Assembly: GCA_001897295.1 (NCBI GenBank)
Contig: MKSN01000001.1
Coordinates: 629,575-672,140 of the forward strand
DNA length: 42,566 bases
Direction of reading: 5' to 3'
From: Candidatus Saccharibacteria bacterium 49-20
GTDB lineage: Bacteria > Patescibacteriota > Saccharimonadia > Saccharimonadales > Saccharimonadaceae
Below, one piece after another: positions 8,319-17,873 of this stretch. The notes below the pieces were generated by a model that saw only the letters and a list, made by a program, of their open reading frames with translations, was not told where the DNA came from and searched no databases. Made by a program: the position numbers and the translations under genes. Numbering within the stretch: the first letter of the stretch is position 1; the number at the start of each line of letters is the position of its first letter.

Positions 8319-11264
8319 TTATCGCAGCTTCACCGATACGCCGTCGTCAGACGCATTCGCCGAGGTGTCGCGAATATGAAGCTTCTCTGGCTCTATAGGA
8401 GCAACAGGCTGCACCGGTGCAGGTGCTGGGGCTGGGGCTGACGTCGACAAGGCTGGCTTCGAAGGGCTATTCACTTTCGGAAGAGGCTTTGGTGCCTCAG
8501 GCTTCACTGGTTGTGGCGCAGCGACAACCGGCTGGGGTGCACTTGGGCTAAGTTGGGCGGTTGGACCAAAGGCCGGGTTTGGCGCCGGTGCTGCGGCAGC
8601 TGGTTTTTGCTGGCTCACGATTTGCTGACGCTTTGAAAGCCACTCATCGAGGAACGATGGCTGCTTAGGTGCTGATAGTCCCGCACCCTGCGGCACAACA
8701 GGAGCCTGTCCAGGTGCAACTGGCGTCGCCGATGAGTTTGGACCCACTCCAGCTGGACCACCCGCCCTAAAGGCCGCCATACGCTCTTCTTGCGCCTTCT
8801 TGAGGGCTGCCATCTTCTGCTTCTTTACTTCATCGCCAATGGCCATGCGCTTAAAGAACTCTTGCTCAACTTGTGCACGCGGCTTACCAAACTTAGTTGC
8901 AGAAAGCTTCTTAAGTGCATCTCGCAGTTGTGGGTTCGCCTGCCCAAGTGGTGGCAGTAGCGACATACTGAATGCCGCCGACGGAACATCCTGAATCATC
9001 ACCGATGCGACCGTCTGGAAGTTTGGCATACGGGTCAGGTCTTCGACATCAAAGGTTGGAGTGAATTTCTTAACCAAAATCTCGGCGTCGGTAATACCAA
9101 TACGTCCGCTAATGACCGTACCGATGTTACCAAGAATTGCTTCACGAATTTGATCGGTCAACTGGGTCATAAACTGGTTCGCCAAGATAAGGCTAAGGCG
9201 ATACTTACGAGCTTCCGACAGAATGGTCGCAAAGCTATCGGTCGCGAAGTTCTGGAACTCGTCCACGTAGAGGCTAAAGTCTTGGCGCTCTGATTCTGGC
9301 ATATCCGCACGACCCATGGCTGCGGCGTTGAACTTCATCACGAAGATCATGCCAAGGAGTTGCGAGTTCAACTCACCTACTCGGCCCTTTGAGAGGTTCA
9401 CGAGTAGGATCTTTTTGTTATCCATAATCTCGCGTAGATTAAAGCCACTCTTGGTTTGACCAATAATATTACGCATCATGTCGTTTGCCAGGAAGGCACC
9501 GAACTTACTCGCAAACCATCCGAGCATTTCACCCTTCGAGCTTTCAGTGGTTTGCGCCATTTCCTTATTCCAGAAGTCGAGCACGGTTTGGGTGGTGACG
9601 TGCTTAATCTTCTCGTCGGCAAAGGCCTGATCAATGAATACCTGCTGAACGTCGAGGAACGACGAACCGTTCGGGTCGGCCATCACGGTCAATGCGGCGT
9701 TACGGAACCACGACTCGAAGCGTGGACCAATGATACCGGTGTGTCCTGGGTCGTACAGCTTATAGAGCATGGCGATAGTTTCTTGAATAATAAAGTCGCG
9801 TTGGTCTTGGTTTTCGAACTCAAACAAGTTGAGGCCCACTGGCATCTCCATGTCACCCGGCGCAAAGTAAATCACGTCTTCAACACGTTCTTTTGGCACC
9901 ATGCCAAGAAGTTCTTCGGCCGAGTCACCGTGTGGGTCGATAAACGCGAAGCCACGACCGTCCATCATGTCTTGGTAGGCAAGGTTCTCAAGCAGCTTCG
10001 ACTTACCCGTACCGGTCTGTCCAATAATGTAGCTGTGGCGACGGCGATCTTTCGTACCAAGGCGAATCGGCTTTTTAGTGCCACGGAACTCGTTGTACCC
10101 AAGCAAGAACCCTTCTTCCATGATCTGCGTTGGGCCATCCACCTGCTTTGCAGACTGGCGCTGCACCTGCGAGGTTGGAATCGAGTTTTGGTTTGGCAGG
10201 TGGAAGATGGTCGCGAGCTCAACGGTGTTAAGGACGTTTTGATTCACCTCTTGTGGGAAAAACCTAAAGATATAGGCCGTCACGAATTCTTCGATATTCT
10301 TTGATACCGCAAACTTAAAACCGTTATTCTGAGTTGAATCAAACAGCGAAAACGCCGCAACGACGTTATTCATAAGTGCCTGCGAACGAGCTGACGTGTT
10401 TGATGACGCAACCACACGAATAAGGGTTTCGTACGCCGGGTATCTCGTCTTGTCATCAATTGCTTCAACGGTAGCTTGCTCGATAGAACTGAGCTGCTTA
10501 TCTTCAACCTTCACTTCGTGGGACTCAGGCGGCTTCCAGAGTGCTTCAAGAATTCCGGTCATGATGGTAGCGGTGCCACCCTTCTTGCCCTTATTCTTAC
10601 GAATATTCTCGGCGACTGACTGCCCTGCCTTAGCCCAACCCTCTTGTGCGGGGCGAATAAGGATTTGAATACCCACGCCGTCTTCACGCGTTGCGCCAGA
10701 AAGTGCATTAAGGAGTGCGCGTGAGGCATCGCGCTTTGACTCTTGGTAGGTTGCGATTGGATACGCAAAGTCTTTCTTTAATGTAAACTCACCACCTATT
10801 GTGCCGCTCATACGACCCGCGGGATTAAAGATGTTACGCTCACTCACCTCTTCAAGGCGTGCCGATGGATACGCCGCGGCGACAGCTTGTTGAATGACAT
10901 CAATAAGCGAAACAGGAACGACTGCATAATAATGTACCAGGCCTTCGTGGGCGACAATCTCGAATGAAATGTGGCGCTGTCCATAAATGCGGCTTTTGAA
11001 GCCCTTGGTCGCGGTGCTGGCAATAATGTTATACATCACCTGTGCTTGGCTCAGCACCTCTTCGGTCAGGTCGCGTTCGTCACGGCCATTGCCTTCGATG
11101 TCAGAACTAATAGGCGGAATATGAATATAAAGCGGGACCATTTTAAGGCCACGTTCATAGTTCTTCGCTTCGCGAACCACCTTACGGTACTGCATGAATA
11201 CAAAGCCACCCACGACTGCGATTGCAATCAGGACAATGGCTACCGTAATGATGACTCCCAACAC
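8319..11264 (-). CDS. VirD4/TraD-like membrane ATPase (type IV coupling-protein family)
   Basis: This 981-residue protein has one N-terminal membrane segment (about 3-25). A roughly 370-residue region of unknown fold follows, then a RecA-like ATPase core. Walker A is GQTGTGKS at 415-422, followed by FAFIDPHGDSAEE; Walker B is YVDEFQNF at 666-673; a sensor-like ANQFMTQL lies near 695. This is the pattern of type IV secretion coupling proteins and related FtsK/HerA DNA pumps. The tail from about 800 is rich in Pro and Ala and probably unstructured. No other conjugation gene is nearby, so DNA or protein transport in the cell envelope is inferred. AAGGGAG-like bases (from the reverse of CTCCCTC) lie before the ATG. 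Confidence 0.85.
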   Translation of the reverse strand: MLGVIITVAIVLIAIAVVGGFVFMQYRKVVREAKNYERGLKMVPLYIHIPPISSDIEGNGRDERDLTEEVLSQAQVMYNIIASTATKGFKSRIYGQRHISFEIVAHEGLVHYYAVVPVSLIDVIQQAVAAAYPSARLEEVSERNIFNPAGRMSGTIGGEFTLKKDFAYPIATYQESKRDASRALLNALSGATREDGVGIQILIRPAQEGWAKAGQSVAENIRKNKGKKGGTATIMTGILEALWKPPESHEVKVEDKQLSSIEQATVEAIDDKTRYPAYETLIRVVASSNTSARSQALMNNVVAAFSLFDSTQNNGFKFAVSKNIEEFVTAYIFRFFPQEVNQNVLNTVELATIFHLPNQNSIPTSQVQRQSAKQVDGPTQIMEEGFLLGYNEFRGTKKPIRLGTKDRRRHSYIIGQTGTGKSKLLENLAYQDMMDGRGFAFIDPHGDSAEELLGMVPKERVEDVIYFAPGDMEMPVGLNLFEFENQDQRDFIIQETIAMLYKLYDPGHTGIIGPRFESWFRNAALTVMADPNGSSFLDVQQVFIDQAFADEKIKHVTTQTVLDFWNKEMAQTTESSKGEMLGWFASKFGAFLANDMMRNIIGQTKSGFNLREIMDNKKILLVNLSKGRVGELNSQLLGMIFVMKFNAAAMGRADMPESERQDFSLYVDEFQNFATDSFATILSEARKYRLSLILANQFMTQLTDQIREAILGNIGTVISGRIGITDAEILVKKFTPTFDVEDLTRMPNFQTVASVMIQDVPSAAFSMSLLPPLGQANPQLRDALKKLSATKFGKPRAQVEQEFFKRMAIGDEVKKQKMAALKKAQEERMAAFRAGGPAGVGPNSSATPVAPGQAPVVPQGAGLSAPKQPSFLDEWLSKRQQIVSQQKPAAAAPAPNPAFGPTAQLSPSAPQPVVAAPQPVKPEAPKPLPKVNSPSKPALSTSAPAPAPAPVQPVAPIEPEKLHIRDTSANASDDGVSVKLR

Positions 11265-11293
11265 GCTCCCTCTTCTCTTTTAGTTATATCGGC

Positions 11294-11725
11294 CTATTCG
11301 CTGGCGCCGACGACCTTGCCGTATCGTTTCTGCAGATAATCTCGCTGTAGCTCGTTCACCTTCTGGGTTCTCGCATGCGGATCATCCCTTGTCTGCTCGA
11401 TAATCTCTTTTGCCTTATCGACCCATTCTTTTTCGATAAGGTCTTCGTCGGCGGCCACTAGTGGCGTAGCCATAGAAGGCGCCGAGGTGTCCTGCGGAGG
11501 CGCCTGCACTGGCGGCGCTACCGGCACAGGAGTCGCCATGGCTGCAGCAGCTGCGGCGTCACTTGCGCGCGCACCCGCTTCAGCTGCCTGTTCAAAGCGC
11601 TCCTGACCTCGTTCTAATCCAGTCTCGAGCGGCGGCAAAGACGGGACATTTTCGGGCCCAATTACCGGTGCGACGGACGCTTGTTCAACACCCGGTACAT
11701 TTACACGAGAATTCTCTGGTTGCAT
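11294..11725 (-). CDS. unknown Pro/Ala-rich small protein
   Basis: I do not recognise this 143-residue protein. Residues 1-80 are Pro/Ala-rich and likely disordered. The last 50 residues are charged and helical (EKEWVDKAKEIIEQTRDD, NELQRDYLQKRYGK). I chose the ATG at 11725 because an extended -10 (TGC TATACT) ends 7 bases before it, so the mRNA would be leaderless. A longer reading from a TTG at 11797 would put that promoter inside the gene. It lies 29 bases upstream of the VirD4-like gene on the same strand, which has a similar Pro/Ala-rich tail. Confidence 0.75.
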   Translation of the reverse strand: MQPENSRVNVPGVEQASVAPVIGPENVPSLPPLETGLERGQERFEQAAEAGARASDAAAAAAMATPVPVAPPVQAPPQDTSAPSMATPLVAADEDLIEKEWVDKAKEIIEQTRDDPHARTQKVNELQRDYLQKRYGKVVGASE

Positions 11726-11843
11726 ATCTGAAAGTATAGCACAAGAAGGTGAGTGAAAAACATAACACTTATGTTTTTCCGAAGCTTCGCAGTGCAATGT
11801 CGCGCCCTAGCGCGAGATAGCACAAATGAGCCACGCCGATCCC

Positions 11844-12230
11844 CTACTTCATCCGCTTACTAACGTACAAACAAGCCACAACTTCAAAAATAATCACAAG
11901 AATAAATTCATAAATACCGATCGATTGCACCGACTGGAGTCCAATCAGCATCACCGGTGCAGCCGCGAGCACCGTACTAAAGTAGTATGCACGCCGAAAT
12001 TCCATCTTAAGAAGCGGTTTGCGAAGCGTCATCCCCGAGGACACCATGACGATCAAGCGATTGATACCAAACAAAAAAAAGCTTATCACGCCCACAAAGG
12101 TCAGATAAGCTGTTACAAAAATCACGAGAAGACCGAAAGGCCCGGCTGTTGCTGGCGAGGTGAAAGTCAGCATAAGGCTTAGCACGACAAGGCTTGCTAA
12201 GGAAATTGTTGCGATTAAACGTGGTAACAT
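11844..12230 (-). CDS. small four-helix membrane protein, unknown function
   Basis: This 128-residue protein has four predicted membrane segments (about 5-25, 30-55, 78-98 and 103-122) with a short charged loop RKPLLKMEFRR. I see no family motif. The ATG at 12230 is chosen because TGC TATAGT ends 7 bases upstream, making a leaderless transcript. The -10 overlaps a second one on the plus strand that would drive the large structured RNA. A longer reading to 12287 is unlikely. Confidence 0.75.
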   Translation of the reverse strand: MLPRLIATISLASLVVLSLMLTFTSPATAGPFGLLVIFVTAYLTFVGVISFFLFGINRLIVMVSSGMTLRKPLLKMEFRRAYYFSTVLAAAPVMLIGLQSVQSIGIYEFILVIIFEVVACLYVSKRMK

Positions 12231-12233
12231 CCC

Positions 12234-12246
12234 TGTTACTATAGCA
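12234..12246. promoter_or_regulatory. overlapping divergent extended -10 elements
   Basis: Plus strand TGTTACTAT (12234-12242) and minus strand TGCTATAGT (12246-12238) overlap over five bases. The minus copy drives the leaderless membrane-protein gene. The plus copy would start the structured RNA near 12249. RNA polymerase could use only one direction at a time. Confidence 0.5.
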
Positions 12247-12248
12247 TA

Positions 12249-12793
12249 CCGCTTAAGATTTAAACGCCCCTTTCCAGCTGGGGGCAATAAGTTCTTTGGA
12301 GTCTAGGCGGTGACTCTATGCGATTCAGGTTACAGCAAACGCCGCTGGAATAATTAGGGCGTGTGAACCGGTGAATCAGAGTACCGCCGTAGACTATCTG
12401 ACCGCTCCGGGAAACCCGGGGCATCTATCGTTTGCTCATAGCCTATTTTCCCGTTCTCACGTCAAGTGTCATACCAACCTATCACTTCTGTTATCACTAT
12501 CCGAAAGAGGGATTCGTGCGGTGTAGATTTGGGATTTACTTGACGTGAGAAGGTACTCACAGGACAAACGCTTTATGTCGATCGCGGAGCATTGTCTGCG
12601 AACGCCTTTGGCGGAGCATCGGTGATGTCTTCTACTAATGAAAGTGCAAAAAGTGTAAACAAGGAGATGTTTGTTTTTGTGCTACTGGGCTGATCGAAAG
12701 GTGCGTTGCTCTTCAAGAGAGTAATATTGATCAGGCCCAAATTCGTTAGGAAACGTCACCGACTTTTCCGTCAAAAAAGTTGGTCTTTTTTCT
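12249..12793 (+). ncRNA. large structured RNA of unknown family (~545 nt)
   Basis: No ORF of useful length occupies this stretch, but strong nested pairing does. A short hairpin lies near 12266-12285. Arm 1: 12300-12311 pairs with 12383-12395 (AGTCTA, GGCGGT), continued by ACTCT/AGAGT and GATTCA/TGAATC, about 28 bp in all. Arm 2: GCTCCGGG/CCCGGGGC near 12403-12421. Arm 3: a perfect 14-bp stem TTCTCACGTCAAGT (12454-12467) with 12538-12551, enclosed by CGTTTG/CAAACG. A later arm near 12688-12737 pairs CTGATC with GATCAG. A strong terminator ends it. Strand is set by the terminator and the plus-strand extended -10. I do not recognise the family; tmRNA and RNase P lie elsewhere in the window. Confidence 0.7.
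12758..12793 (+). terminator. intrinsic terminator of the large structured RNA
   Basis: ACCGACTTTT pairs with AAAAAGTTGGT (one G-U), followed at once by CTTTTTT. The T run is on the plus strand, fixing the direction of the RNA. Confidence 0.85.
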
Positions 12794-13067
12794 ACTCGTA
12801 TTGAGTTACCAAATTGTTAAGGTGTTTTTGTGGTGGCTTTTTTGAATGTGTTTGTGTTTCTAAAAGCTTGTCCTAACTCTAGCATAAGCAGGACATTTGG
12901 TCAATACTCCCTGAATACATTTTTATTGTATTTCGTACAACTACAATCTACAACGAAGTTATTTTAAGGTGTTAATAGTATATTGTTGATTTATATACAT
13001 CATTGTAAATTTGTAGCCCTCTCGCCTCTCGCAGCGCCGCAATAAGCATGTAGCAAACCTTACAGCA
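12794..13067. other. AT-rich intergenic stretch
   Basis: No gene seen. It holds weak hairpins (GTCCT/AGGAC near 12870-12893; AATACA/TGTATT near 12914-12930) and several A+T-rich tracts, but no clear promoter-gene pair. Confidence 0.4.
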
Positions 13068-13092
13068 CACAAAAAACGCCCTTTCGGGCGCT
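13068..13092 (-). terminator. terminator after pilin gene
   Basis: Minus strand CGCCC-GAAA-GGGCG followed by TTTTTTGTG, 26 bases after the pilin stop. Confidence 0.85.
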
Positions 13093-13117
13093 TCATCTCA
13101 GGTTTCTGGCGCGCCAC

Positions 13118-13498
13118 CTAAGGACATACGCCTTCAGCCGCAGCAGTATTGCTGCTTGTGGCATATGCCAGGCTGCCGTTATTCTCGGTGCCGACGCAAA
13201 ATGTATCGTTCGCCGCATTTCTTGTGTAGGTAATTGTCGACCTAGTGGTAACTGTCATATAGTTGAGGCTCGAAAATGTTGCGCTTGTTGGATATGAGCC
13301 GTTTTCTGATTTGTACCTATGTAAACGAACTGCAATTGTTTGTGCGTCGGTTTTCGCCGTTTGTAGTTCAGAGTTTGTGCGCACAACGCCGTACGTCACG
13401 ACCGTGATAGACGCGAGGATCGCAACAACCGCAATAACGACCAGCATTTCAATGATCGTAAAGCCATTTTTCTCATCCCCATTACACGTACATGTCAT
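13118..13498 (-). CDS. type IV pilin-like protein (short)
   Basis: This 126-residue protein has the class III signal of type IV pilins: NGFTIIEMLVVIAVVAILASITVV, here residues 11-34, where prepilin peptidase would cut before Phe and the Glu at position 5 is kept. The rest is a small globular domain with two Cys near the end, possibly a disulfide loop. I chose the ATG at 13498 because TGC TACACT ends 7 bases upstream; the longer reading to 13615 would add a non-pilin leader. It is one of three dispersed pilin genes in the window. Confidence 0.85.
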   Translation of the reverse strand: MTCTCNGDEKNGFTIIEMLVVIAVVAILASITVVTYGVVRTNSELQTAKTDAQTIAVRLHRYKSENGSYPTSATFSSLNYMTVTTRSTITYTRNAANDTFCVGTENNGSLAYATSSNTAAAEGVCP

Positions 13499-13602
13499 TG
13501 CCAAAAGTGTAGCACAAGCACAATATATAGCGTTATATGTGTTCAGCAAAAACATAGGAAATTGCGTAGTATTTTTTACCAAAAGATTCTTACAAAAAAG
13601 TA

Positions 13603-13631
13603 TTGACGTAAGCACTATGCCGTCATATTAT
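13603..13631 (+). promoter_or_regulatory. promoter for plus-strand small transcript
   Basis: -35 TTGACG (13603-13608), 17-base spacer, -10 TATTAT (13626-13631). No annotated plus-strand gene follows before comM. Confidence 0.6.
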
Positions 13632-13698
13632 AGGGGTAGTTCCTGAGTAAAAAAATTATGCAGGGGCTCAAAAACAAAAATCACCGCAAAACTCCACG

Positions 13699-13735
13699 AA
13701 ATCGGCCATTCCTCGCAGGTGGCCGATTTATTTTG
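13699..13735 (+). terminator. terminator, first of two
   Basis: AAATCGGCCA pairs perfectly with TGGCCGATTT, followed by ATTTT. It could also work weakly leftward. Confidence 0.6.
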
Positions 13736-13744
13736 GCTTTATTT

Positions 13745-13767
13745 CCCGCTTTCTAAGCGGGTTTTTC
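13745..13767 (+). terminator. terminator, second of two
   Basis: CCCGCTT-TCT-AAGCGGG then TTTTTCT on the plus strand. The hairpin also covers the stop codon of the convergent gene. Confidence 0.65.
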
Positions 13768-14085
13768 TGTACTCAGGCGCATCGCATCGTAATGTGAGGC
13801 GTAGGTCCAGCGAAACACTTGCGCCATTGCCCCCTGCCCCATCAATCGATACACGATTTCATCATTTACCCGTGGCTCGCGCAGCACGAAGAGTCGATTA
13901 TCTTGAATGGTCTCATTACTTTCACTGAACGAAGGTTCGCCCCGTTCGTAGTGCGGCACTAAAAAGCGTCCGTCGCGATAAAAAAAAGGGAGTTGAAAAT
14001 TCGACTCCCCATCTCGTACAAATCCGGGATATGCAGGGGTGTCGTACTCCAGTACATATCCCCTCCCAAGGTGGTGCTCGGTCAT
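13753..14085 (-). CDS. unknown small protein downstream of tmRNA
   Basis: I do not recognise this 110-residue protein. It is rich in aromatic residues and Arg/Glu (QLPFFYRDGRFLVPHYERGE, FRWTYASHYDAMR) and has no membrane segment. The frame stays open to 14178, but that extension would overlap the tmRNA 3' end, so I start it at the ATG at 14085, preceded by AGAGAAAG. The gene starts about 30 bases after the tmRNA CCA end, so it may be transcribed by read-through from ssrA. Confidence 0.65.
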   Translation of the reverse strand: MTEHHLGRGYVLEYDTPAYPGFVRDGESNFQLPFFYRDGRFLVPHYERGEPSFSESNETIQDNRLFVLREPRVNDEIVYRLMGQGAMAQVFRWTYASHYDAMRLSTEKPA

Positions 14086-14115
14086 ATCTTTCTCTGTAAA
14101 TATAAATAATGTCTG

Positions 14116-14517
14116 TGGTGGAGCTGCCGGGTACTGCCCCCGGGTCCAAAAGGTAACCTGATATTCGTCTACAAGCATATCCTTACTTGGATAATTTAGG
14201 ACTCGTGCCGCCTAGAAGTAAGGCGAAAATAGCCGCGAAAGTCCCGCTGTAAAGTGTCCCGACCCCTCGCAGCTGCCCGCGGGATCAGTAAGACACGTAG
14301 TATATAACACCGTCTCCCCTACGTATCCTTGGGAAGATCGATGGCTACCAAATAATTAGGCAGCGAGCGCAAAGGCAGCTTGCTTAGGCGCGAATGCGCT
14401 AGCGAAGAATGCCTTTACTGATGCAAGTTTGTTTGCAATTAAATAAACACCTAACGGGTGTAAAACGACTTGCTGAATATCCTGTTAAAATCCTCTCGTC
14501 GAAGCTATATCAGCCCC
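14116..14517 (-). ncRNA. ssrA: transfer-messenger RNA (tmRNA)
   Basis: tmRNA frees stalled ribosomes and tags the unfinished protein for proteolysis. The 5' end GGGGCTGATATAGCTTCGACG pairs by its first 7 bases with CAGCTCC just before ACCA at 14119-14116, rebuilding the alanine acceptor stem. The tag frame runs from the resume codon GCA at 14436 to TAA at 14358-14356. It encodes 26 residues beginning ANKLASVKAF and ending QAAFALAA, with the usual ALAA degron. The T-arm has stem CCGGG/CCCGG but loop GGCAGTA, unlike the canonical TTCRANY. Length is 402 nt, at the long end of the usual range. Confidence 0.92.
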
Positions 14518-14531
14518 ACGCGACATCTGTT

Positions 14532-14540
14532 ATTTTACCA
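14532..14540 (-). promoter_or_regulatory. extended -10 promoter for ssrA
   Basis: Minus strand TGGTAAAAT ends 14 bases before the mature tmRNA 5' end. This leaves a short precursor for RNase P to remove. Confidence 0.5.
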
Positions 14541-14577
14541 CAAAAGTTCATAATTTTCTACTGCTTGAACGCCTATC

Positions 14578-16107
14578 ATGAAGTACATGGGCGGTGTATC
14601 ACGAAATAAGATTGCAAAAGTGCACGCAGGGGCACTGGTTGGCTACTTAGGCGAAGCTATAGAGGTCGAGACCGATATCAAGTCGGGCTTACCGAGTCTT
14701 CAAATTGTCGGCATGGGCAATAAAGCCATCGACGAAGCCCGCCAAAGGGTTCGAAGCGCCATTACCAACTCAATGCTCGAATTCCCTGCCCAAAAAATTA
14801 CCGTCAATCTTGCACCGGCCGAGCTCCCAAAAGACGGCACCCACCTCGACCTCCCTATTGCGCTAAGCATCCTGGTTGCGAGTGGCCAGCTGAAACATAC
14901 AGAGGTGAAAGATGCTCTTTTCGCAGGTGAACTCGCACTCGACGGGTCGCTTCGGCCGATTCGCGGCGCCATACTGCTCGCCGAACTTGCCAGATCCCTG
15001 GGGCTTAAGCGCCTCTTTCTGCCCGTTCAGAACGTAGCCCAAGCGTTATTGGTAGATGGAATAGATATCATTGGGGTAACAAACCTACAAGAACTCTACA
15101 TGGGCTTACGTGGGCTCGCGCCCTTCCCGGCGCGACCGCCCATAACGCCCGCCGTCATGCCACCCCCGTTACATGCAGCTTTTGATTCCATTGTCGGCCA
15201 CGAGCAAGCAAAGCGCGCCCTTGTCATCGCAGCTGCGGGTCGACACAACATCTTATTCTCGGGTTCGCCCGGTGCAGGTAAAACCCTTCTCGCGAAAAGT
15301 CTTCAAAGCATCCTTCCCCCGCTCTCACCAACGGAAACTCTTGAGGTAACAAAGCTTCACAGCCTCGCCACAGGAGATATAGAGGCCGTCCAGCGCACGC
15401 CACCCTTTCGCGCACCTCACCATAGCACTACCCTGTCGTCACTTATAGGGGGCGGCCTAAAGCCGCGACCCGGCGATATAAGCCTGGCACACAGGGGTGT
15501 GTTATTTCTTGATGAGCTTCCCGAATATCCCCGCACACTCCTTGAAGCGCTCCGCCAACCTCTTGAGGAGCGCACCATCCACCTATCTCGTCTTTACGGA
15601 CGCATCACCTGGCCTGCGGACATCCTGCTTATTGCAACTATGAACCCCTGCCCCTGCGGGTTTCTGGGCGATTCACATACGCATTGCACCTGCACACGCA
15701 CGCAAATTGATGCCTATAGCAAAAAACTTTCTGGCCCGCTGATGGACCGCATCGATTTGCGTCTCACAATTTCCAAGGTTGACCACGAACACTTTTTTGA
15801 TGCAAATACGTTGAATAATAGTCAACACTTTAAAGTGTTAAAGCTTATATCTACTGCTCGAGAGGCTCAGAAAAAACGATACAAACGTAGCGACATTTAC
15901 AATGCTTATGCTTCGATTGAGGACATAAAACACCTATTCAACGTGTCCGCTGAGGCCAAAAAATACGCCAGCCAGGCGAGCAAAAAATTATCACTCACTT
16001 CGCGCAGTTATATACGGATTCTGAGAGTCGCTCGCACAATCGCCGACCTAGAAGAAAGTAGCTTCATCGAGATTGCTCACATTTCAGAAGCGCTCCAGTT
16101 TCGTTAA
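14578..16107 (+). CDS. comM: YifB/ComM-family Mg-chelatase-like AAA+ ATPase
   Basis: This 509-residue protein matches ComM, a hexameric helicase that extends branch migration during natural transformation. It has the N-terminal LonC-like domain (residues 1-180, GLPSLQIVGMGNKAIDEARQRVRSAI), the Mg-chelatase AAA+ core with Walker A GSPGAGKT at 229-236 and Walker B-like VLFLDELPEY, a Cys cluster (NPCPCGFLGD ... HCTCT), and the C-terminal Mg-chelatase domain. The ATG at 14578 is used; an ATG three codons later (14587) sits 7 bases after TATCAT and could be a leaderless start. It overlaps the convergent acetyltransferase by 4 bases. Together with pilins it suggests DNA uptake. Confidence 0.93.
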   Translation: MKYMGGVSRNKIAKVHAGALVGYLGEAIEVETDIKSGLPSLQIVGMGNKAIDEARQRVRSAITNSMLEFPAQKITVNLAPAELPKDGTHLDLPIALSILVASGQLKHTEVKDALFAGELALDGSLRPIRGAILLAELARSLGLKRLFLPVQNVAQALLVDGIDIIGVTNLQELYMGLRGLAPFPARPPITPAVMPPPLHAAFDSIVGHEQAKRALVIAAAGRHNILFSGSPGAGKTLLAKSLQSILPPLSPTETLEVTKLHSLATGDIEAVQRTPPFRAPHHSTTLSSLIGGGLKPRPGDISLAHRGVLFLDELPEYPRTLLEALRQPLEERTIHLSRLYGRITWPADILLIATMNPCPCGFLGDSHTHCTCTRTQIDAYSKKLSGPLMDRIDLRLTISKVDHEHFFDANTLNNSQHFKVLKLISTAREAQKKRYKRSDIYNAYASIEDIKHLFNVSAEAKKYASQASKKLSLTSRSYIRILRVARTIADLEESSFIEIAHISEALQFR

Positions 16108-16553
16108 TCTTCTGGAGCAACGTGAAATACGGTCGTGTCGCGAACGCTCGCGCCGTGCTTTGCGTAAAATGCATGCGCCGCCTGTTTAGTGTCGCCAGAG
16201 GTAAACTCAAGCTCAACCCCGTGCTCGTGGCACCAATTCATCATCTCTTGCCATAGGGCATCTGCAACGCCTCTACCTTGGACCCCTGTATCCACTACAA
16301 AGTCCTGAAGGTATCCGAGCTTCTGCATGCCAGCACCCATCACAATGCTCATCGTCGCGGTACCAACAATACGTGCATCGAGCCGGGCAACCAATTGATC
16401 GTGATAGGATGATTCGATAATCGCCTCAAGAACCTCTTGAGGTATCGGCGCGCCGTCAAACCGCGCACCGAGCATCGACATGAGGCGGCCGATATCGCCG
16501 GCATCCCCATCGCTATACTCGGTTAAACGCTCTACGACAAGTTGCTCATTCAT
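16104..16553 (-). CDS. GNAT-family N-acetyltransferase
   Basis: This 149-residue protein has the GNAT fold: a central IVGTATMSIV strand, then the acetyl-CoA loop LQDFVVDTGVQGRGVADALWQEM (Q-x-x-G-R-G-x-A motif), and a C-terminal LEFTSGDTKQAAHAFYAKHGA stretch, where AHAFYxKHGF-like sequence is typical. The acceptor cannot be told. I chose the ATG at 16553 since TGG TATTAT ends 6 bases before it, another leaderless arrangement. The convergent stop codons of this gene and comM overlap. Confidence 0.88.
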   Translation of the reverse strand: MNEQLVVERLTEYSDGDAGDIGRLMSMLGARFDGAPIPQEVLEAIIESSYHDQLVARLDARIVGTATMSIVMGAGMQKLGYLQDFVVDTGVQGRGVADALWQEMMNWCHEHGVELEFTSGDTKQAAHAFYAKHGASVRDTTVFHVAPED

Positions 16554-16602
16554 GCTTCTATAATACCAAAGCCTCACTCCCGAAGCACCTCTCTTAAGCC
16601 CC

Positions 16603-16631
16603 TTGCCTTTCCCTGTTAAATTTGGTAAAAT
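16603..16631 (+). promoter_or_regulatory. promoter for infC-rpmI-rplT
   Basis: -35 TTGCCT (16603-16608), 17-base spacer, extended -10 TGG-TAAAAT (16623-16631). It gives a leader of about 135 bases before infC. The leader holds a GCCGAA/TTCGGC hairpin near 16657-16679 followed by TGATTTT. A leader of this kind could bind L20 for autoregulation, which is known for this operon in other bacteria but not shown here. Confidence 0.6.
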
Positions 16632-16771
16632 AACTCTTGAGTAAAAGCTCGAACCGGCCGAACTAAAGAAGATTCGGCTGATTTTAGGTAAAGGGCCCGT
16701 GCACTTCTCCCCTCTTCCACGGAAGAACAGGGAACAAAAAATGCGAGAATCGGGTCTAAAAAGGAGAGGTT

Positions 16772-17278
16772 ATTAACCAAAAAATTCGTATCAACGAGCA
16801 GATTCGTGCAAATGAACTACGCGTTATCGGAGAGTCAGGCGAGCAGCTCGGCATCATGAGTCGCCAAGAAGCACTCAAGGCCGCAGAAGAAGCCGAACTC
16901 GATTTGGTTGAAATCTCACCCAATGCCGACCCACCTGTTGTCAAAATCATCGACTGGGGTAAATACCAGTATCAGAAGGAAAAGGAAGCTCAGAAGAGCC
17001 GCCGCAACAGTAAGCAAAGCGAACTCAAGCAAATGCGTTTTGGGCTCAAGATCGGACAGGGCGACCTGGACATCAAGCTCCGCAAAGTACGCGAGTTCCT
17101 GAGCGAGGGACACAAAGTCCGTATCCAAATCTTCTACCGCGGTCGCGAGATGGCGCACAAAGAATTGGGTTACGACATGATTAACAAAATCGGAACACTA
17201 CTTGAAGAAGAAGCCGTGTTCGAGCACACGCCAACAATGGCGGGACGCAACCTAAGCGTTGTCGTTCGCAAGAAATAA
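16772..17278 (+). CDS. infC: translation initiation factor IF-3, AUU start codon
   Basis: IF-3 binds the 30S subunit, keeps 50S away and checks the initiator codon. The 168-residue product begins INQKIRINEQIRANELRVIG, has the family core LVEISPNADPPVVKIIDWGKYQYQKEKE, and ends with the KVRIQIFYRGREMAHKELG domain. I start it at ATT 16772: AAGGAGAGG lies 3 bases upstream, an in-frame TAA sits at 16757, and no ATG/GTG/TTG is available before 16856, which would remove the conserved N-terminal segment. An AUU start is the known basis of IF-3 autoregulation in E. coli. Confidence 0.93.
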   Translation: MNQKIRINEQIRANELRVIGESGEQLGIMSRQEALKAAEEAELDLVEISPNADPPVVKIIDWGKYQYQKEKEAQKSRRNSKQSELKQMRFGLKIGQGDLDIKLRKVREFLSEGHKVRIQIFYRGREMAHKELGYDMINKIGTLLEEEAVFEHTPTMAGRNLSVVVRKK

Positions 17279-17289
17279 GGAGAATACTA

Positions 17290-17484
17290 ATGCCAAAGCT
17301 CAAGACCCACAAGGGAACTGCGAAGCGCGTAAAGATTACCAAGACTGGTAAAGTTACACGCCAACGCGCCTTCGGTGCCCACCTTCTTGCTAAGAAAAGC
17401 AAGAGCCGCAAGCGCCGTATTAACACAACCGCTACCGTAACCGGTGGTACCGCTAAGAACATTAAGCGAGCTCTGGGCGTCTAA
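17290..17484 (+). CDS. rpmI: 50S ribosomal protein L35
   Basis: A 64-residue, very basic protein starting MPKLKTHKGTAKRVKITKTGK, the standard L35 opening, with the central AHLLAKKSKSRKRR block. It lies 11 bases after infC with GGAG before the ATG, in the universal infC-rpmI-rplT order. Confidence 0.97.
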   Translation: MPKLKTHKGTAKRVKITKTGKVTRQRAFGAHLLAKKSKSRKRRINTTATVTGGTAKNIKRALGV

Positions 17485-17528
17485 GAGGACTTTCGTCCCG
17501 CCTACGACTATAAGGAGAACATAAGACT

Positions 17529-17873
17529 ATGCGCGTAAAGAAAAGCGTCCAAGCACGCAACCGCCACAAAAAAATCTTGGCCCAAGCCAAGGGTATGCAA
17601 CACAACCGTACACGTAGCTTCCGCCTTGCTAAGCAAGCCGTAACTCGTGCACTCGAATACAGCTACCGCGACCGCCGCAACCGTAAGCGCGACCTGCGCG
17701 CCCTCTGGATCACTCGTATCAACGCGGCTGCACGCCAAGAAGGTACTACTTACGGTAAGCTTATTGCTGGCCTCAAGGCTGCAAACATCGAACTCGACCG
17801 CAAGGTCCTCGCTGATCTTGCAGTAAACGAGCCTGCAGCTTTTAAGGCAATCGTAGCAGCAGCTACTAAGTAA
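17529..17873 (+). CDS. rplT: 50S ribosomal protein L20
   Basis: A 114-residue basic protein with the L20 signature: [12 protein letters not shown] near 13, the [23 protein letters not shown] helix pair and [24 protein letters not shown]. It binds 23S rRNA early in 50S assembly, and in some bacteria represses its own operon. A GGAG site precedes the ATG. A terminator follows the stop within 20 bases. Confidence 0.97.

Follow-up and report, generated by a model that had tools for sequence, protein, structure and literature searches.

An uncatalogued large structured RNA predicted from conservation and covariation in Saccharibacteria

Comparison with described RNA families

GOLLD, ROOL and raiA are large noncoding RNAs that are specific to certain bacterial lineages. 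OLE RNA comprises ~600 nt, and the gene that usually lies immediately 3′ of it encodes a small membrane protein, predicted to have four helices (PMC12265935). The protein OapA carries a DxxxD motif and is CNNM-like (PMC11332333). Our analysis of a 42,566-nucleotide stretch of Candidatus Saccharibacteria bacterium 49-20 (contig MKSN01000001.1, positions 629,575 to 672,140), which will be referred to as the window, indicates that a real, uncatalogued structured RNA is encoded on the minus strand, running from a predicted start at ~12869 leftwards to a conserved 3′ boundary at ~12298 and comprising ~570 nt. For positions 12249-12793 of the window, an earlier note had proposed a plus-strand RNA of unknown family with its own promoter and terminator. 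The absence of a known family was borne out, as cmscan of the region against Rfam yielded no match even at the permissive threshold of E = 10, and ~50 homologous loci produced only chance-level matches to Rfam, OLE included, up to E-values of 1-5.

With OLE RNA the locus shares the character of a large structured noncoding RNA (~600 nt long here as in OLE), a 3′ neighbour encoding a small membrane protein with four predicted helices, and shorter variant RNAs in some clades. It differs in its host, which belongs to the Saccharibacteria and not to the Bacillota, and in shrinking to ~140-250 nt in other families. The neighbouring protein differs as well: in the window it contains no aspartate and thus lacks the DxxxD motif of OapA, and CNNM was found neither among the Pfam matches listed for 31 members nor among the Foldseek matches shown. 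Moreover, the wider synteny described below weakens the argument that can be drawn from the pairing of RNA and neighbour. Membership in the OLE family (RF01071) was rejected, there being no model match and a neighbour with neither the OapA motif nor similarity to CNNM; the working likeness to OLE/OapA is an analogy that may serve as a lead. GOLLD, ROOL and raiA (PMC12286853) are comparable in being lineage-specific, large, structured and conserved, but they occur in other hosts beside other neighbours, and no sequence-structure match to them was obtained in the window (to E 10) or in the homologs. In the open-access literature on noncoding RNAs, transcriptomes and transposon screens of Saccharibacteria, nothing on this RNA was found.

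As a single-copy structured RNA gene, the locus also resembles the genes of tmRNA, RNase P RNA, SRP RNA and 6S RNA, and it might encode a divergent or relic housekeeping RNA of this kind. Its strong promoter and its location among the tmRNA and RNase P RNA genes fit this explanation, as does the failure to detect SRP RNA or 6S RNA anywhere else in the genome. However, neither in the window, scanned to E 10, nor in the ~50 homologous loci did the scans mentioned above give even a weak Rfam match, and RNase P RNA and tmRNA are encoded nearby on the same strand by separate, recognisable genes of their own, the respective models matching elsewhere in the window and not on this RNA. Neither the small nor the large bacterial SRP RNA model matched the RNA, its homologs or any other part of the genome, and the RNA-binding domain of the SRP protein was missing from the profile matches of all eight genomes searched, which would leave an SRP RNA without an obvious partner. 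The 6S model (RF00013) gave no match on the RNA, the structure of which also lacks a bubble closed by a stem between the 5′ and 3′ ends. By model scans, structure and missing partner domain, an SRP or 6S RNA in disguise was ruled out; the housekeeping explanation is largely refuted and must be regarded as highly improbable. That standard large RNAs are encoded elsewhere in the window, as had been stated, was correct for RNase P RNA and tmRNA. The 6S-like RNA claimed elsewhere in the window has no Rfam support, and the exclusion of 6S as first worded was for this reason invalid; 6S is excluded instead by the direct scans of the RNA itself.

Several observations concern the housekeeping RNAs as such. 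RF00169 was not matched in genome G000, nor above cut-off in 60 relatives, RF01854 was not matched in seven genomes, and the RNA-binding domain of Ffh (PF02978) was detected in none of eight Saccharibacteria genomes versus 14 of 14 control genomes. As far as such profile searches can indicate, Saccharibacteria appear to live without a signal recognition particle. A sub-threshold 6S match (31.8 bits, E = 4e-5) is located in a relative (G068:C1:821085-821237, minus strand) ~5.6 kb from the copy of the RNA in that genome, and 6S RNA may be divergent in this order. At 14040-14148 (minus strand) of the window, the permuted-tmRNA family is matched weakly, at 32.4 bits and thus below its gathering threshold of 47, in a segment overlapping the ordinary tmRNA match (14116-14517) at its end; this tmRNA is not called by ARAGORN.

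Strand, extent and covarying structure

Positions 12249-12793 are noncoding, as first described, and fold strongly on the plus strand (z = −7.05, 0 of 100 shuffles as good). The arms that had been named exist as well, i.e. the stem at 12300-12395, the GC hairpin at 12404-12422, the 14-bp stem within 12451-12553 and the GATCAG/CTGATC arm at 12685-12740. On its own strand the RNA contains no open reading frame of at least 80 amino acids, and the minus strand from 12869 to 12298 folds with z = −5.18, again with 0 of 100 shuffles as good. Taken singly, the plus-strand sequence thus has a slight advantage in folding, and some conserved positions are G-U on plus where they are A-C on minus. Both points favour a plus-strand RNA as originally proposed, with the minus-strand promoter belonging to another transcript. 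The homologs argue for the opposite strand. In a 19-homolog alignment the RNAalifold consensus reached −160 kcal/mol on minus versus −146 kcal/mol on plus, with 114 G-U and 23 A-C cells on minus versus 90 and 49 on plus. The 3′ domain of 71 distinct homologs, read as minus, contained 210 G-U versus 25 A-C cells, and when pairs were picked by Watson-Crick cells alone, a strand-neutral choice, the ratio was 164 to 21. Two conserved positions, located in helix P2 and in the hairpin that precedes the core, are A-C on minus; some homologs have A-U or G-C in place of these wobbles, which are in this respect compatible with a minus-strand RNA.

BLASTN detected the region in almost every genome of the genus as several conserved blocks with variable blocks in between. 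In the 19-homolog alignment the conservation ran ~100 nt past the right-hand edge first given, up to 12904, and on the minus strand this additional part reads TTGACC-17-TG-C-TAGAGT followed by an A-rich leader. The promoter scan and the homologs identify it as a promoter of the RNA (12904-12876, minus strand) consisting of a −35 box TTGACC (12904-12899), a 17-nt spacer and an extended −10 TG-C-TAGAGT with its hexamer at 12881-12876. Of 60 homologs, 51 had a fixed TTGACN-TGNTA pattern on the minus strand upstream of the core, the 17-nt spacing proved almost invariant in a scored search of the homologs, and a like promoter occurred in 19 of 19 loci from other families. This promoter and the 5′ hairpin with its A-rich loop are conserved in every family examined. 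On the plus strand the scan found no promoter in front of 12249; the ACTATA near 12240 is complementary to a TGCTATAGT that is conserved on the minus strand ahead of the next gene. The plus-strand terminator did not hold up either, since one terminator-like site was found versus 1.8 expected by chance and the sequence of that site, ACCGACTTTTCCGTCAAAA, is complementary to the 5′ strands of P2 and P3, which are conserved in the minus-strand RNA. Because of the wobble asymmetry and the conserved minus-strand promoter, we assign the RNA to the minus strand, from ~12869 to 12298, and consider transcription of a plus-strand RNA from this locus extremely unlikely. The structured region as initially delimited was confirmed, whereas its right edge was not, the RNA reaching ~75 nt further.

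Upstream of this promoter, positions 12890-13020 and their counterparts in homologs form an AT-rich noncoding stretch with short TACAACGTTGTA-like dyads in several homologs, possibly a regulator or origin-type site.

In 5′ to 3′ direction on the minus strand, the predicted RNA is composed of a hairpin with an A-rich loop, a leader element, helices P2 and P3 around variable arms, a long stem, a hairpin, the GGAGCGGUCAG core and a 3′ arm. The 5′ hairpin (GCUUUU/AAAAGC, 12836-12867) is derived from folding and from the leaders of other families, in which the stem is swapped wholesale (GUAAGU/ACUUAC) and the loop remains ACAAAAACAAA-like. It is followed by a conserved, single-stranded leader element recognised by sequence (UUAACAAUU, 12812-12820), a TTRACAA/TTAAAAA-type element being present in 50 of 63 leaders. 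The 5′ strand of P2 (UUUUUGACGGA, 12767-12777), which includes one of the conserved A-C positions, is partnered by 12605-12615, and that of P3 (starting with UCGGUGACG, 12750-12763) by 12618-12632; the 3′ strands of both helices (12605-12632) carry the motif CACCGAUGCUCCGCC and are defined by conservation and covariation. The GATCAG/CTGATC arm falls within a segment that is variable between homologs. In the long stem-loop at 12451-12553 the 14-bp stem is kept and the apical part varies among homologs. The homolog alignment then shows a hairpin and the near-invariant core (12408-12398), together occupying 12398-12422, and the 3′ arm at 12300-12395, an interrupted stem of ~28 bp, exhibits the strongest covariation.

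A universal closing helix between leader and core (CUGACCG/CGGUCAG) was considered; it is attractive in many homologs and absent in this genome and others, and was rejected. The conserved ACAAAAACAAA A-rich 5′ loop (12842-12861) and the U-rich apical loop of the 3′ arm, of the AAUAGUNUAUUUUU type, might base-pair with each other or build a triple helix; as neither loop varies much, covariation is uninformative on their pairing.

Covariation was most pronounced in the 3′ domain. Among the 71 distinct homologs 94.7% of the cells were paired, two-sided changes occurred at 27 of 31 pairs, and 365 two-sided cells were counted versus 89 in shuffled alignments. The covariation score was 0.557 compared to 0.230 after shuffling and 0.05-0.10 when the register was slid, by which the paired share dropped to 31-52%; none of 500 shuffles reached any of the five measures. 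The 71-homolog alignment was fitted to the model, so that these counts lean towards it, and an unfitted alignment of 18 sequences already showed two-sided changes at 17 of the 31 pairs. For P2 and P3, 53 two-sided cells were obtained versus 16 shuffled (43 sequences). Covarying stems and a conserved position in other Saccharibacteria, by which the earlier note had proposed to check its candidate, were thus both found.

Conceivably, the locus represents a DNA-level or other element, e.g. a structured processing site within a longer transcript, and gives rise to no discrete RNA product. The 3′ end of the RNA in this genome would agree with that, as it has no clear terminator: the GC hairpin past the RNA (GCCCC...GGGGC, GUUUAAAU, 12265-12286, minus strand), predicted by folding, is a weak candidate below the criteria of the terminator scan. 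Nevertheless, in several families terminators lie close behind the RNA, and the two-sided covariation and the wobble asymmetry show selection acting on an RNA. We therefore think it very doubtful that an element of this type accounts for the locus.

Distribution, synteny and promoters of the neighbouring gene

The covariance model R1 matched 129 of 295 genomes of the own family, with one copy each, and model R2 also reached other families. Model R3, built from the shorter form of other families, matched 134 of 245 genomes of the order, nearly all of them outside the own family. The RNA measures ~570 nt here and ~300-680 nt across the own family, and the order's other families have a form of ~140-250 nt that keeps the 5′ A-loop hairpin, the GAGCGGUCAGU core and the 3′ arm. 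The two forms are linked by one genome (G093) that was strongly matched by both the long-form model R2 (5.7e-11) and the short-form model R3 (3.1e-11). In 40 genomes with the neighbouring protein and no genome-wide R2 match, applying R2 to the upstream kilobase yielded matches in 30, all on the strand of the protein, and the core motif occurred in 22 versus 0 on the opposite strand. When 333 genomes sampled from the whole phylum were searched with R3, two weak matches lay outside the order, one within the same class (G528, 6e-5) and one in G719 (0.0018). Named relatives belong to Candidatus Saccharibacteria, including Candidatus Microsaccharimonas. Judging from these searches, nearly all Saccharibacteria examined appear to keep the RNA as a single copy.

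Immediately after the RNA, in the same orientation (11844-12230, minus), comes the gene of a 128-amino-acid protein with four predicted membrane helices, referred to below as the 4-TM gene. RNA and protein were located by independent genome-wide searches. In each of the 107 genomes that yielded both, the gene came 3′ of the RNA in the same orientation, with a median gap of 64 nt; at all but a few loci of the own family it is recognisable by sequence. The AlphaFold2 model of the protein is helical with a mean pLDDT of 84.7. Pfam, NCBIfam, PDB-sequence and fold searches gave no meaningful match, and none of the Foldseek matches shown reached E ≤ 0.001.

This adjacency has to be seen against a conserved block of ~12 kb with the order rplT, infC, comM-like gene, [tmRNA], RNA, 4-TM gene, small gene and TraG-like ATPase gene, which together with two further genes is kept across the order in almost all of 16 genomes, for each of which 15-16 kb were read. 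The RNase P RNA and, in the own family, the tmRNA are encoded on the same strand as the RNA. Since the block is conserved as a whole, the adjacency of RNA and 4-TM gene is weak evidence of a partnership; the universal pairing, at first a candidate for strong proof, was downgraded by this synteny control, and the partnership of RNA and membrane protein is put forward as a hypothesis.

In the window the block spans 8319-17873 (TraG/HerA-like ATPase, small gene, 4-TM gene, RNA, (tmRNA), comM-like, infC and rplT), and the TraG-like ATPase, retained throughout this epibiotic order, is of interest by itself. Between tmRNA and RNA, a pilin-like gene with an N-terminal methylation motif (13118-13495, minus strand) is present here and in genome G008; in most relatives checked it was not recognised at that place.

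A cis-acting leader, controlling the downstream cluster of 4-TM protein, small protein and TraG-like ATPase by attenuation, ligand binding or processive antitermination, would likewise be expected to lie immediately before the same gene in the same orientation, as the RNA does in all 107 genomes. In other families the layout is indeed the usual one for a leader, with strong terminators often located between RNA and gene and no separate promoter evident, which makes this a serious rival. A −10 element of the 4-TM gene was found there in 5 of 15 cases versus 26% by chance, none standing out, so that the claim of an always independent unit had to be lowered and RNA and gene may be co-transcribed in these families. 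In the own family, however, the 4-TM gene has a promoter of its own. Its −10, conserved in homologs and represented in the window by the extended −10 TGCTATAGT at 12238-12246 (minus strand), is mostly situated 6-11 nt before the start codon, and a −10 score of at least 6 was reached in 47 of 69 loci compared to 4% in shuffles. An intrinsic terminator separates RNA and gene in some homologs, namely L017 and several other families. Terminator/antiterminator switching was rejected, as a simple test gave no consistent sign of it, the 5′ arm of the terminator pairing nominally with the upstream RNA in 2 of 10 terminators, and within the own family the RNA grows to 400-600 nt without a terminator layout. 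Taken together, we consider a leader function less probable than action in trans. The separate −10 of the own-family gene and the terminator between RNA and gene in some homologs support the RNA as an independent unit.

Proposed function and significance

We suggest that the locus probably encodes an independently transcribed noncoding RNA acting in trans as a ribonucleoprotein. A strong sigma70-type promoter of its own (12904-12876) would drive minus-strand transcription of the single-copy gene, whose product would serve as a ribonucleoprotein scaffold and be neither message nor leader. The fixed parts, i.e. the 5′ hairpin with the A-rich loop, the GGAGCGGUCAG core and the 3′ arm, might provide the binding surface, and the variable arms might be lineage-specific extensions. 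By analogy, the neighbouring 4-TM protein could anchor the RNA at the membrane, as OapA does for OLE RNA; this most testable version of the proposal is a speculative one. Similarly tentative is a Saccharibacteria-wide RNA-protein pair with an origin independent of OLE/OapA, in which the RNA would be held at the membrane by a dedicated four-helix protein and work with the adjacent TraG/VirD4-like ATPase.

With no Rfam family and no paper found that describes it, the RNA is best regarded as a new family among the large structured bacterial noncoding RNAs, a known kind; a new mechanism is not claimed. Very few noncoding RNAs specific to the Candidate Phyla Radiation have been described, and none of this kind was found in our searches of the Saccharibacteria literature. 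Regardless of mechanism, the family is ready for annotation libraries. As cultured and genetically tractable Saccharibacteria exist (PMC10633639), the function of the RNA is directly testable. If the reading as a membrane ribonucleoprotein is true, the RNA would offer an independent comparison for OLE RNA, the biochemical function of which is still open, and would represent a second class of membrane ribonucleoproteins in bacteria, found in small-genome, host-attached cells. Apparently kept by nearly all members of an order with reduced genomes and a host-dependent life, the RNA is probably important to those cells.
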